Assembly (NCBI GenBank): GCA_030645235.1
Contig: JAUSMV010000030.1
Coordinates: forward strand, 372,001-436,000
Reading direction: 5' to 3'
Source of the DNA: Parvibaculum sp.
GTDB lineage: Bacteria > Pseudomonadota > Alphaproteobacteria > Parvibaculales > Parvibaculaceae
DNA length: 64,000 bases
Shown here: positions 44,294 through 47,846 of the stretch, piece after piece
Layout of the letters: every line of letters begins with the position of its first letter
How positions within the stretch are numbered: position 1 is the first letter of the stretch
Program-made: the position numbers and the translations under genes
Notes under the pieces: generated by a model
Database searches by the model: none
What the model saw: the letters and a program-made list of their open reading frames with translations, nothing else
Told to the model about the DNA's origin: nothing

Positions 44294-45199
44294 ATGAGCA
44301 TTCGTTTTGACGGCAAGGTTGCCATTGTGACCGGTGCAGGCGGTGGCCTTGGCCGCAGCCATGCGCTTGAACTCGCACGTCGCGGCGCCAAGGTTGTCGT
44401 CAATGATCTCGGTGGTTCGCGCGACGGCTCAGGCGGCTCGTCTGACGCGGCCAACAAGGTCGTCGAAGAAATCAAAGCGCTGGGCGGACAGGCCATCGCC
44501 AATGGCGCGAGCGTCACTGACGATGCGGGCGTTGCCCATCTCGTTCAGCAGACGATGGACGCATACGGTCGCGTTGACATCCTGATCAACAATGCGGGCA
44601 TCCTGCGCGACAAGTCATTTTCAAAAATGACGATGGAAGATTTCCAGCTCGTCGTTGACGTGCATCTCATGGGCACCGTGAAGCCGACCAAAGCCGTCTG
44701 GGAAATCATGAAGGCCCAGAACTACGGTCGCATCGTTGTGACAGCGTCATCCACGGGCCTTTACGGCAATTTCGGCCAGACCAATTACGGCGCAGCGAAG
44801 CTCGCTGTTGTCGGCTTCATCAACACGCTGAAGCTTGAAGGCCAGAAGAACAATATCCGTTGCAACGCGCTCGCGCCTGTTGCTTACACGCGCATGACAT
44901 CGGACCTGATGCCGCCGGAAACAGAACAGATGCTGACACCGGAAAGCGTTTCGCCGGGCGTGATGTATCTCGTGTCGGAAGACGCACCGACAGGCGTCAT
45001 CCTCTGCGCCGGTGCCGGTGTATTCGCTGCCACGCGCATGGAAGAAGCCGAAGGCATCTACCTTGGTCGCGAAGGTCTCACGGCTGAAAAAGTTGCCGAG
45101 AACTGGGCCAAAATTTCCGACTTCTCGAACGCCTCGCCCTATTTCATGGGTGGCGAACAGACCGGCAAATTCTTCAAACTCATCGCCGGCGACAAGTAA
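44294..45199 (+). CDS. SDR dehydrogenase, MFE-2/17beta-HSD4-like
   Basis: A 301-residue short-chain dehydrogenase. It shows the cofactor loop GAGGGLGRSHALELA and the acidic VVVNDLGGSRDGSG that selects NAD+. Catalytic Ser (TASSTGLYG), Tyr and Lys (NYGAAK) are all present. The first 100 residues closely resemble the dehydrogenase domain of peroxisomal multifunctional enzyme 2, here without hydratase or sterol-carrier domains. It would oxidise (R)-3-hydroxyacyl-CoA in beta-oxidation. GGGAG before ATG 44294 fixes the start. Terminator GGGGAG/CTCCCC follows. It sits with other acyl-CoA genes. Confidence 0.87.
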   Translation: MSIRFDGKVAIVTGAGGGLGRSHALELARRGAKVVVNDLGGSRDGSGGSSDAANKVVEEIKALGGQAIANGASVTDDAGVAHLVQQTMDAYGRVDILINNAGILRDKSFSKMTMEDFQLVVDVHLMGTVKPTKAVWEIMKAQNYGRIVVTASSTGLYGNFGQTNYGAAKLAVVGFINTLKLEGQKNNIRCNALAPVAYTRMTSDLMPPETEQMLTPESVSPGVMYLVSEDAPTGVILCAGAGVFAATRMEEAEGIYLGREGLTAEKVAENWAKISDFSNASPYFMGGEQTGKFFKLIAGDK

Positions 45200-45225
45200 G
45201 ATTTTTGCTGATTTCGACATGAATT

Positions 45226-45250
45226 GGGGAGTCTCTTGGCTCCCCTTTTT
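45226..45250 (+). terminator. Rho-independent terminator after the SDR gene
   Basis: GGGGAG (45226-45231), eight-base loop, CTCCCC (45240-45245), then TTTTT. It lies 27 bases after the SDR stop codon. Confidence 0.75.
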
Positions 45251-45310
45251 CGTGCCTGAAAAGCGGGGATAGACATTTTATCCATCAACTTTGAGACACG
45301 GATTTCGAGT

Positions 45311-45351
45311 ATTTCTTGCAAGAGATCGAGTGTTTCCATGCAGAGATCGTT
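45311..45351 (-). repeat. 41-bp dispersed repeat, copy 3 (inverted)
   Basis: The reverse complement is identical to 28647-28687 over all 41 bases. Similarity to copy 1 extends past the 41 bases on one side through CTCA-CGAAC-GA and CTATCCCC-CCTGA. It lies between the SDR and DUF559 loci. Confidence 0.85.
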
Positions 45352-45468
45352 GTTCAGTTCGTTGAGTGTCGAGCGGGTGCCGGGTTGAGAGAAATAATCA
45401 GGTGGGGATAGAGGTTATTTTTCCAGTTTATGTTTTGCTCTCCCGCATCTTTCCTTCTCGCAACGGGA

Positions 45469-45570
45469 GGGGAACGCGGGTCAATTCAAATTCCGTGGAT
45501 GACGTGAGCGCGGTGCCCCCGCCCCGAACGCCCTTCGGTCGTTCGACCCTCCCTCGAGGGGAGGGTTAAG
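45469..45570 (+). repeat. DUF559-associated repeat module, copy A
   Basis: Starts GGGGAACG and runs through TCAATTCAAATTCCGTGG, GCGCGGTGCCCCCGCCCC, a hairpin CGAACG...CGTTCG with an inner TTCG (45525-45545), then the near-palindrome ACCCTCCCTCGAGGGGAGGGT (45546-45566, two halves). It lies 78 bp upstream of the DUF559 gene. Copy B at 46042-46146 matches closely except in the hairpin. Confidence 0.9.
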
Positions 45571-45648
45571 GAAGAATGCCAGATCATCTGCGATTTACGG
45601 CCTCCCCTTTTTTTCGATGTTCCTCCAATATGCATTCGGAGGCGGAGG

Positions 45649-46008
45649 ATGACCGATTCACGATTGCGACACATGCGACGGAATATGACGGAGGCGGAGT
45701 TTCGTCTCTGGCTGCATTTGCGCAATGGGGCACTCGGCTTTCATTTCCGACGGCAACATCCGCTCGGCCCTTACATTACCGACTTTGCGTGTTTGGAACG
45801 TCGCCTCATTGTGGAAGTCGATGGCGGTCAACACAGTCTGCCGACCGAACTCGCGCATGATGCAAAACGCACACAATGGCTCAATGAAGCAGGTTTTCGC
45901 GTCATTCGCTTTTGGAACAATGATGTCGTGAACAATATTGAAGGCGTTGTCGAACTGATCGTTGAAGAATTGAAACGACCGCGCACTGACCTTGAACCCT
46001 CCCCTTGA
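45649..46008 (+). CDS. DUF559 small endonuclease-like protein
   Basis: A 119-residue protein of the DUF559 family, distantly related to Vsr and other PD-(D/E)xK nucleases. The likely metal-binding residues are Asp45 in YITDFACLE, Glu56 and Asp58 in IVEVDGGQH, and Gln61. The N-terminal LRRNMTEAEFRLW segment is typical. GGAGGCGGAGGATG gives a strong ribosome site. No DNA methyltransferase gene is adjacent, so this is not a restriction pair. The gene is bracketed by three copies of a palindromic module (45469-45570, 45994-46046 inverted, 46042-46146), hinting that protein and repeats belong together. What it cuts is unknown. Confidence 0.85.
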   Translation: MTDSRLRHMRRNMTEAEFRLWLHLRNGALGFHFRRQHPLGPYITDFACLERRLIVEVDGGQHSLPTELAHDAKRTQWLNEAGFRVIRFWNNDVVNNIEGVVELIVEELKRPRTDLEPSP

Positions 46009-46046
46009 GGGAGGGTCAAACGGCGTCTTCGCCGTTTGGGGCGGGG
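45994..46046 (-). repeat. DUF559-associated repeat module, inverted partial copy
   Basis: AACCCTCCCCTTGAGGGAGGGT (begins 45995) is the reverse of the palindrome in copies A and B. Next comes a perfect 9-bp hairpin CAAACGGCG-TCTT-CGCCGTTTG (46017-46038), then GGGGCGGGG, which joins copy B at 46042. The palindrome itself follows the DUF559 stop codon so closely that it partly overlaps the coding end. Confidence 0.85.
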
Positions 46047-46146
46047 AACGGTGGTCAATTCAAATTCCGTGGTCGACGTGAGCGCGGTGCCCCCGCCCCA
46101 AAAAATCAAAGTGATTTTTTGACCCTCCCTCGAGGGGAGGGTTCAA
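46042..46146 (+). repeat. DUF559-associated repeat module, copy B
   Basis: Same order as copy A: GGGGAACG, TCAATTCAAATTCCGTGG, GCGCGGTGCCCCCGCCCC, then a 9-bp hairpin AAAAAATCA-AAG-TGATTTTTT (46100-46120), then ACCCTCCCTCGAGGGGAGGGT. The hairpin sequence differs from copy A and from the inverted copy, but the symmetry is kept. Confidence 0.9.
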
Positions 46147-46152
46147 GATAAG

Positions 46153-46641
46153 TCAATCGAGCACTTTTTCCATGCGCCAGACGAGTTGCGGTTTGCGGCC
46201 GTCCATTGTGCCGATGGTGACGTCCACTTCGCGGGCGACGTGCCAGCCGTGTTTTTCGTAGAAGGTTCGTGCACGGATGTTTCCGACCTGACACTGGAGC
46301 CAGATGCGGGTATGGCCCTGCTCTTTGAGTTTTGCTTCGGCGGCGGCCAGCACCAGAGGCGCGACGCCGCGGCCGTGGTATTCGGGCAGCACGAAGACCT
46401 GACCGATGCCGTCGCCGTCCCAACCGGCGAAGCCGACAATCACGCCGTTGACGGTGGCGACGACGCAATCGGGCAATGCTGTCTCTATGCGCGGCAGGAA
46501 AAATTCAAACGGGCGGCCCGCAGCGACATCCGGCGAGAGATGGGCGTGGCCCTGATGCCAGCCGTCATGCCAAACGCGAGCGAGCGCCGGAATATCTCCG
46601 GCGCCCGCAAGTCGTATCTCTATATCTGACGTATCACTCAA
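46153..46641 (-). CDS. GNAT family N-acetyltransferase
   Basis: A 162-residue acetyltransferase. Acetyl-CoA binding is by VLPEYHGRGVAPLVLAAAE (motif A: R/Q-x2-G-x-G/A with a Val-Ala substitution), and GNIRARTFYEKHGW is the motif B helix. The substrate is unknown. It ends just past the DUF559 repeat locus and its start ATG at 46641 overlaps the ACAD stop at 46638 by four bases, so it is likely the second gene of an ACAD-GNAT transcript on the minus strand. Confidence 0.87.
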   Translation of the reverse strand: MSDTSDIEIRLAGAGDIPALARVWHDGWHQGHAHLSPDVAAGRPFEFFLPRIETALPDCVVATVNGVIVGFAGWDGDGIGQVFVLPEYHGRGVAPLVLAAAEAKLKEQGHTRIWLQCQVGNIRARTFYEKHGWHVAREVDVTIGTMDGRKPQLVWRMEKVLD

Positions 46642-47846
46642 AGGCCGAGCACAGCCTTGGCCATGATGTTGCGCTGAACTTCGTTCGAGCCCGCATAGAT
46701 CGAGGCTTTGCGGAGCGAGAAGTAGTAAGGCGCAACGGTCATTGCGTAGGCGGGGCCAACCGAAGGTTCGTTGGTTTCGACCATGCCGTCCTCAACGAAG
46801 GGCGTGATGTAGGAACCAACCGCTTCAACGGCGAGCTGCGAGAGCGCCTGCTGGATTTCCGTGCCACGGCATTTCAGCAATGAGCTTTCAGGACCGACAT
46901 TGCCGCCGGTTGAGAGCGCTGCGAAAATGCGAAGCTCGGTGAATTCCATCGCCACGATCTGGGCTTCAAGATCAGCGGCAGCGGCCTGAAACTCCGGCTG
47001 CTGCGCCAATGTGCTGTCACCGACTTTGGTGTCGGCGGCGATCTGGCGGACTTTCTTCAGTGAGCGATAAAGGCCCGCCGAATAAGGATTGCCGCGTTCA
47101 AACTCAAGCAGGTACTTGGCGTAGGTCCAGCCTTTGTTTTCTTCGCCGATACGGTTTTCCATCGGCACCTTCACGTCGGTGAAGAAGACCTGATTGACTT
47201 CCTGATGCGGCGCGGGCGTGCCATCGAGAAGAACGAGCGGCTCAACTTTGACGCCCGGTGTCTTCATGTCGATGAGCAAGAATGAAATACCTTCCTGCGG
47301 CTTGCCTTCTTTGGAGGTGCGCACGAGGCAGAAAATCCAATCGGCCCACTGAGCAACAGACGTCCAGATTTTGGAACCGTTGACGAGATAGTGGTCGCCC
47401 TTGTTCTCGGCCTTTGTTTGCAGCGAGGCGAGATCGGAACCGGCTCCCGGCTCCGAATAGCCCTGACACCACAAAACATTGGTTTCAAGAATATCAGGCA
47501 GGAAACGCTTTTTCTGTTCGGGCGTGCCGAATTTCATGATGACGGGTGCCACCATGGTCGGGCCGAAAGGGACCGTGTGGGGGACGCCCGCACGGCCCAT
47601 TTCGACGTCGAAAATGTATTTCTGCGACCGTGAGAAACCCGGACCGCCGTATTCCGTCGGCCAGTTCGGTGCGAGCCAGCCTTTTTTGGCCAGTGACTTC
47701 TGCCACTGAACATGGCTCGCCTTGTCGATATAGCCATGCTTGGAGCGGGCGTGTTTGGCACGCATCGCGGGCGTATAGGCTTCTTCGATGAAGGTGCGAA
47801 CTTCCTTGCGGAAGGTTTCGTCCTCGGTGCTGAAATTCAGATCCAT
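46638..47846 (-). CDS. Acyl-CoA dehydrogenase (PimC/FadE-type large form)
   Basis: A 402-residue acyl-CoA dehydrogenase. QGYSEPGAGSDLASLQT and GSKIWTSVAQWADWIFC in the middle, and GSNEVQRNIMAKAVLGL at the C-terminus, place it with the PimC-like large-subunit group. It resembles the gene at 55748 and would oxidise a branched, dicarboxylic or sterol-type acyl-CoA, to be confirmed. A GNAT gene follows with a 4-bp overlap, and the ABM gene lies nine bases upstream on the same strand. Confidence 0.92.
   Translation of the reverse strand: MDLNFSTEDETFRKEVRTFIEEAYTPAMRAKHARSKHGYIDKASHVQWQKSLAKKGWLAPNWPTEYGGPGFSRSQKYIFDVEMGRAGVPHTVPFGPTMVAPVIMKFGTPEQKKRFLPDILETNVLWCQGYSEPGAGSDLASLQTKAENKGDHYLVNGSKIWTSVAQWADWIFCLVRTSKEGKPQEGISFLLIDMKTPGVKVEPLVLLDGTPAPHQEVNQVFFTDVKVPMENRIGEENKGWTYAKYLLEFERGNPYSAGLYRSLKKVRQIAADTKVGDSTLAQQPEFQAAAADLEAQIVAMEFTELRIFAALSTGGNVGPESSLLKCRGTEIQQALSQLAVEAVGSYITPFVEDGMVETNEPSVGPAYAMTVAPYYFSLRKASIYAGSNEVQRNIMAKAVLGL

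Follow-up and report, generated by a model that had tools for sequence, protein, structure and literature searches.

Short extragenic palindromes of the REP and REPIN kind, often set as inverted pairs, are described as multicopy, as linked to one small dedicated gene for a DNA-cutting enzyme, and as mobile DNA that is thought to be non-autonomous (PMC3116915, PMC8266576, PMC3733652); in its passages on CGTC repeats, a REP survey describes these as having no dedicated transposase (PMC3733652). Caulobacter VsrA carries a DUF559 domain, has a predicted Vsr-like structure and is proposed to act in the repair of deaminated 5-methylcytosine (PMC12907096), in a paper whose main text does not contain the string 'palindrom', and I-Bth0305I is described in the setting of a phage and a group I intron (PMC3943268). 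The Rfam family whalefall-1 is classed as a noncoding RNA (PMC2864571).

The window analysed here is a 64,000-nt stretch of Parvibaculum DNA (G000:C58:372001-436000; source genome G000, 3.83 Mb), in which a small DUF559 nuclease gene lies among palindromic repeats. Like those of REPIN-RAYT systems, the repeats are dispersed inverted-pair palindromes, with 63 BLAST matches to element B (defined below) in the source genome, 46 places that hold the strict palindrome ACCCTCCCNNNNNGGGAGGGT against 0 for its reversed control, and 23 two-ended elements that fit one search pattern. They differ from REPIN-RAYT in that the enzyme is a DUF559 nuclease, RAYT being a HUH transposase, and in the make-up of the ends, each of which combines a palindrome (hp1) with a hairpin (hp2) and an arm rich in G. 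A GTAG or CGTC tag beside the palindrome is characteristic of REP; the CGTC repeats described in PMC3733652 carry a different tag from the elements here. A profile search of the source genome for the RAYT gene (Y1_Tnp, PF01797) returns 0 matches, so that a system which appears to work like REPIN-RAYT is not filed there. As with MITEs, terminal ends are common to gene-less and gene-bearing copies (in genome G101, two pairs bear DUF559), and elements are present or absent at matching sites of relatives; as MITEs are generally understood, the difference is that the gene enclosed here is a nuclease of another family. We find it probable that these repeats are selfish mobile elements, a palindromic family with a single gene, for a small DUF559 nuclease of Vsr-like type that aids their spread, resembling REPIN-RAYT with an unrelated enzyme.

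Anatomy of the locus and its nuclease

The features of the locus, in window coordinates and with the basis of each assignment, are as follows.

45465..45566, + strand: element A, left-truncated (sequence and repeats; 82% match to element B)
Parts of element A: G-rich arm 45465-45472, core, arm' 45516-45525, hp2 45525-45545 (CGAACG..CGTTCG), hp1 45546-45566
45649..46008, + strand: DUF559 nuclease ORF, 119 aa (ORF list; PF04480, E 2.3e-38; last codons and TGA in, and just before, element B hp1)
45996-46142: element B, two-ended, 147 bp
45996..46016, + strand: element B left terminal palindrome hp1, ACCCTCCCCTTGAGGGAGGGT (sequence; genome palindrome count)
46017..46038, + strand: element B left hairpin hp2 type A, CAAACGGCG TCTT CGCCGTTTG (sequence, folding, element parsing)
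46038..46046, + strand: element B left G-rich arm, GGGGCGGGG (sequence and repeats)
46047..46090, + strand: element B core, 44 nt (a length found in 20 of the 23 two-ended copies)
46091..46099, + strand: element B right arm, CCCCGCCCC (sequence and repeats)
46099..46121, + strand: element B right hairpin hp2 type B, AAAAAATCA AAG TGATTTTTT (sequence, folding, element parsing)
46122..46142, + strand: element B right terminal palindrome hp1' (sequence; genome palindrome count)

The palindromes and hairpins quoted in the earlier note are all present (CGAACG..CGTTCG, CAAACGGCG..CGCCGTTTG, AAAAAATCA..TGATTTTTT, and the hp1-type GGGAGGG palindromes at 45546-45566, 45996-46016 and 46122-46142), and the small nuclease gene that it placed between repeats is indeed there, as a DUF559 ORF. 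Its parse into three modules has to be replaced: element B has the 'inverted copy' as one end and 'copy B' as the other, and 'copy A' is the right end of a second element, from which the left hairpins are missing and in which the arm, core, second arm, a third hairpin and hp1' are retained. The ORF sits between elements A and B with its stop codon inside the element B repeat, and a gene between two elements, rather than inside one, is also found in Parvibaculum MAG-82 (L050). Folded as DNA, 45985-46152 yields z = -12.45, with 0 of 200 shuffles as good, and the centroid fold of the single DNA strand is a four-way junction: both ends pair into an outer stem, a second stem joins arm to arm, and two hp2 arms complete it. 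A further dispersed repeat lies directly upstream of element A, at 45244-45425, with copies at G000:C58:600783-600965 (88%) and G000:C55:639099-639275 (83%); the copies examined are bounded by CGGGGATAG / CTATCCCC-like ends.

The window protein matches PF04480, which Pfam still labels 'protein of unknown function', at 130.8 bits (curated cut-off 20.6), and its closest named DUF559 relatives, at 58 and 55% identity, are from Parvibaculum. Profile searches relate it to PDB 3hrl (E 3.9e-36), to 3r3p ('Mobile intron protein', E 2.4e-5), which we take to be I-Bth0305I, and to PvuRts1I (E 1e-3), and on these sequence profiles the protein is assigned to the Vsr-like nucleases of PD-(D/E)xK / EDxHD type. 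Residues R10, E17, G30, F33, Q36, D45, F46, E56 and H62 are invariant across 33 aligned sequences (the window protein and 32 of 43 relatives; three with an in-frame stop, L058, L076 and L089, and eight others were omitted), which fits a putative metal-dependent nuclease. What the locus has in common with EDxHD homing endonucleases is a related nuclease borne on a mobile element; it differs from the I-Bth0305I setting in that the elements are many dispersed palindromic copies. An Rfam scan of 44800-46800 at E<=0.1 lists four matches, none of them an intron. A PADLOC defence-system scan returns a weak match alone (13.8 bits), and PHROGs five weak matches, two of which are named endonuclease. The three stop-bearing genes, and a fourth at G101:C5:10621-10935, are still flanked by hairpin repeats; such genes inside surviving repeats are as expected for the decay of a mobile gene.

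DUF559 might instead be a very-short-patch repair nuclease, as proposed for Caulobacter crescentus VsrA, with the surrounding repeats incidental or tolerated. VsrA (CCNA_02930) has the DUF559 domain in common with the window protein and is described as required for the SOS response when the methyltransferase ScmA is absent; its proposed role, in deaminated 5-methylcytosine repair, sets it apart from the system here, and mismatch repair by VsrA is stated there as a prediction (PMC12907096). The window protein has a weak match to the NCBIfam vsr model TIGR00632 (E 7e-4), and we reject its assignment as Vsr by this curated model, since the score of 19.8 bits is far under the cut-off of 97.85. Repair would moreover leave the inverted repeats and the genome-level link unexplained, and we regard it as a quite unlikely explanation; repair and mobility can be compatible if the protein's substrate is DNA that is mispaired or folded into structures.

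Copies, shared ends and empty sites

The search for conserved blocks across the genome that the earlier note had proposed yields the 63 matches given above, and the linkage to DUF559 recurs in relatives. Parsing of two-ended elements was limited to those fitting one pattern; the core measures 44 nt in 20 of these 23, and the hairpins differ between the two ends in every one (0/23 with matching end hairpins, which common descent could explain). The orientation of the core, read by eye in 22 of the 23 as the core of the window copy has diverged, is A-to-B in 10 and B-to-A in 12, which indicates that the core is flipped relative to the end hairpins. The source genome holds 3 DUF559 genes, all 3 bracketed by such repeats; in one of these copies (L047) the gene stands in place of the core, with the arms inside and the hairpins outside, its left hp1 looks degraded, and its inverted-repeat score of 13 is under the value of 18 used below. 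A complete unit runs from hp1 through hp2, which some units lack, and the G-rich arm to DUF559, followed by arm', hp2' and hp1', over ~430-500 bp, and the many-copy modules are gene-less derivatives with a ~44-nt core replacing the gene.

Gene-bearing and gene-less copies can be compared directly in G101, where the 65-nt left end of the DUF559 unit L169 has 44 matches in its own genome and none in G010 or G276. Inverted pairings, 21 in number, take up 41 of the 44 matches: one on C31 encloses a DUF559 gene free of stops (inner distance 377), one on C5 a DUF559 gene interrupted by an in-frame stop (inner distance 376), and of the other 19, 13 enclose 35-48 nt, while the remainder (12 to 591 nt) include partly matched ends. 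Ends common to gene-bearing and gene-less copies make this a repeat family like an insertion sequence and its MITEs.

The earlier note had also held that the hairpin changes sequence and keeps its symmetry. In the source genome this does not carry far, as there are mostly two recurrent hairpin types, one per end, and with different hairpins at the ends of 23/23 two-ended elements the change mostly means that the two ends differ. In G101 the claim stands, with two of five measures not clearly above shuffles. Across 31 of 33 G101 half-elements (29 distinct; two with a longer hp2 were omitted), hp1 is nearly invariant and 5 of 9 hp2 pairs change on both sides. Double-change cells number 37 against 10.1 in shuffles (0/500 as high) and 3, 5, 7, 11, 5 and 0 with slid partners; pairing is kept in 98.1% of cells, with a covariation score of 0.224 vs 0.084. 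Pairs with double changes are modestly above shuffles (5 vs 3.5; 22/500 as high), further pair types are not above them (9 vs 9.4), and a mismatch is present in some hp2 types. The copies of one genome are related, so this pairing evidence is good and not independent. End hairpins match in 0 of 14 G101 pairs, with 1.4 expected (P=0.21).

We compared the window locus with 26 other genomes of the genus and find that, among the matches listed, none from another genome covers the window DUF559 gene. The window site is without the element in G309, G295, G301 and G291, whose flanking genes lie side by side, 89, 80, 62 and 135 bp apart; G308 retains one half-element there. A second element site (C36:43229) is empty in G308, G301, G295, G309 and G299, the five genomes read of six searched, the sixth being G311. 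No target-site duplication is readable at either empty site, identity between genomes in the flanks being only ~68-90%. Around positions 1365-1500 of L210, in G291, a different palindromic pair beginning CGTCACCCCGG... occupies this window site, which other relatives have empty; it may belong to the REPs with a CGTC tag described in PMC3733652.

Enclosure of DUF559 genes by inverted repeats

Enclosure was scored as the inverted similarity between 250-nt flanks, with scores of at least 18 taken as strong. A first sample, from several phyla, comprised 43 DUF559 loci from named genomes and 3 source-genome copies (46 in all, 44 scored, the flanks of L073 and L075 being too short), and 22 of the 44 reach 18, vs 0 of 186 other ORFs of the same loci. 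Strong scores are found in 9 of 13 loci from Bacteroidota, by record title, so enclosure extends beyond Pseudomonadota. A second sample comprised 109 alphaproteobacterial DUF559 loci, hand-picked from profile-search places and leaving out the source-genome three, four with in-frame stops and lower-score matches (some full length); 107 were scored. Here 68 of 107 loci, in 64 genomes, are strongly enclosed, vs 0/115 neighbour ORFs and 0/1227 size-matched placements, with 39/107 having no strong enclosing repeat. DUF559 genes thus adjoin these modules far above expectation when set against other genes, as the earlier note had envisaged. Cross-genome flank pairs score at least 18 in 135 of 1970 cases, because the repeats resemble each other between genomes. 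This pairing of nuclease and repeat in distantly related bacteria suggests a little-noticed kind of mobile DNA.

The fit between gene and repeat is close. In the 68 enclosed loci the repeat ends a median of 17.5 nt ahead of the start codon, the inner span has quartiles of ~355 and ~427 nt, and in 46 the right repeat starts upstream of the stop codon, so that the tail of the protein is written by the repeat (for example PLPQAGEG and PQPLPFREGS). Distances between proteins and between repeat sequences are weakly correlated (Mantel rho 0.14, p=0.039, n=68).

Such hairpins are able to function as RNA, and the repeats might be transcription terminators or structured RNAs among which DUF559 lies by chance. 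In favour of this, Rfam whalefall-1 (RF01762) has full-length matches in the window at 46089-46144 (- strand) and 45994-46048 (+ strand), and the scores there, 31.6 and 23.1 bits, are below the gathering score of 37. Further scores below 37 come from two G101 loci (32.8 and 30.1 bits); outside the window, full-length sub-threshold matches lie at L256:2150-2205 and L240:1503-1558; the 56-nt model matches one element end in two genomes, and 3 of 16 loci in a second scan. Neighbouring genes, however, are not enclosed (0/115, and 0/1227 placements), two elements are missing at matching sites of relatives, and between its hairpins the core is found pointing either way, which together make an RNA role a very improbable account of the repeats. 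The whalefall-1 'RNA' may rather be the end of a DUF559-linked element. The same Rfam scans also return sub-threshold matches to the unrelated hairpin families MIR839, mir-5881 and PhotoRC-I, and we therefore treat the whalefall-1 link as a lead only.

Genome-level co-occurrence and a proposed mechanism

For 289 Alphaproteobacteria we counted CTCCCN{3,9}GGGAG palindromes against a reversed control, taking E<1e-20 as a strong DUF559 match and at least a 2.8-fold excess together with 15 places as palindrome-rich. Genomes with weak DUF559 matches only (25 alphaproteobacterial, 32 other) were omitted from the with/without tests and counted as 'without' in within-family contrasts, through which alone kinship is addressed. 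The median log2 palindrome excess is 0.98 in genomes with a strong match (n=72), 0.0 with a weak one (n=25) and -0.42 with none (n=192; p=2e-18, strong vs none), and the within-family sign is positive in 27 of the 29 families that hold both kinds. Strong DUF559 matches occur in 26 of 30 palindrome-rich Alphaproteobacteria, the other four being G004 and G193 (weak) and G144 and G212 (none), and 22 of the 72 strong-DUF559 genomes show little CTCCC-type excess. The 236 other Pseudomonadota give medians of 1.70 (strong, n=40), -0.11 (weak, n=32) and 0.00 (none, n=164), with p=3e-12 for strong vs none and a positive within-family sign in 8/9 families; the 37 palindrome-rich genomes among them divide into 24 with strong DUF559 matches, 4 with weak and 9 with none.

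Those nine palindrome-rich genomes with no DUF559 match would suit the proposal that another enzyme, of the host or a transposase acting in trans, mobilises the element, with DUF559 as cargo or as a domesticated helper. PD-(D/E)xK proteins such as TnsA, which can help other transposases, provide a precedent. The interquartile inner span given above is, however, about the size of a DUF559 gene and leaves little room for a second one, and Y1_Tnp, the sole transposase class tested, is absent from the source genome and present in only 2 of the 30 palindrome-rich Alphaproteobacteria (base 59/289); on this evidence another mobiliser appears unlikely. The same genomes bear on very-short-patch repair. 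DUF559 and C5-methyltransferase show no co-occurrence across the 289 Alphaproteobacteria (34/72 vs 87/217, p=0.33), and 38 of the 72 strong-DUF559 genomes have no methyltransferase match. C5-methyltransferase does track palindrome-rich genomes as well (21/30, base 121/289), more weakly than DUF559 (odds ratio 3.7 vs 30).

The suggestion of the earlier note that protein and repeats form a selfish unit is well supported by the hp2 pairing kept in G101, by enclosure, by genome co-occurrence and by the two sites empty in relatives. That note had named two observations as telling against it, namely many modules with no link to DUF559 genes and stems that are not conserved as pairs. The first is what we find, most of the 63 matches lying well away from the 3 DUF559 genes, which is the expectation for non-autonomous copies; the second is not, as the stems remain paired.

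We infer that DUF559 drives the movement of the element. The nuclease would recognise the folded end, hp1 by sequence and hp2 by shape, while the element is extruded or single-stranded, and would nick or cut that end; repair or replication of the cut could then yield a moved copy, as is thought for REP elements with RAYT transposases. With a two-hairpin end and a four-way fold, cutting of an extruded or single-stranded form is the most economical guess. Inversion of the core could arise from resolution of a four-way junction in either sense, and the junction fold together with a core in both orientations makes junction cutting a candidate for the chemical step. A broader proposal, which we advance tentatively and with slightly more doubt than belief, is that DUF559 represents a previously unrecognised transposase-like enzyme class, in which one Vsr-fold nuclease reads a folded end of two hairpins and spreads both the element and the derivatives that lack the gene; such a class could stand behind much of the G-rich palindromic repeat content in Pseudomonadota, Bacteroidota and other phyla, and could account for REP-like repeats for which no mobilising enzyme is known.

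The link between DUF559 and repeats offers a directly testable pair of enzyme and substrate, along with a reason for the repeats to exist, and it is a caution for work that treats DUF559 proteins solely as repair enzymes. The hp2 stems, varying among the copies of one genome yet paired, are a naturally occurring record of how the shape of DNA or RNA has been selected. Our search of the open-access literature, a scope that excludes most subscription journals and bioRxiv, found no link between DUF559 and repeats in the titles and opening lines of abstracts listed.

The control palindrome GAGGGN{3,9}CCCTC is present at 538 places in G321, vs 57 for the tested one, possibly as another abundant palindrome family. 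G010, a genome of 3.4 Mb, holds ten DUF559 matches and 459 palindromes (control 11); the six of its DUF559 genes that were compared are 34-60% identical mutually, and their hairpin sequences differ.
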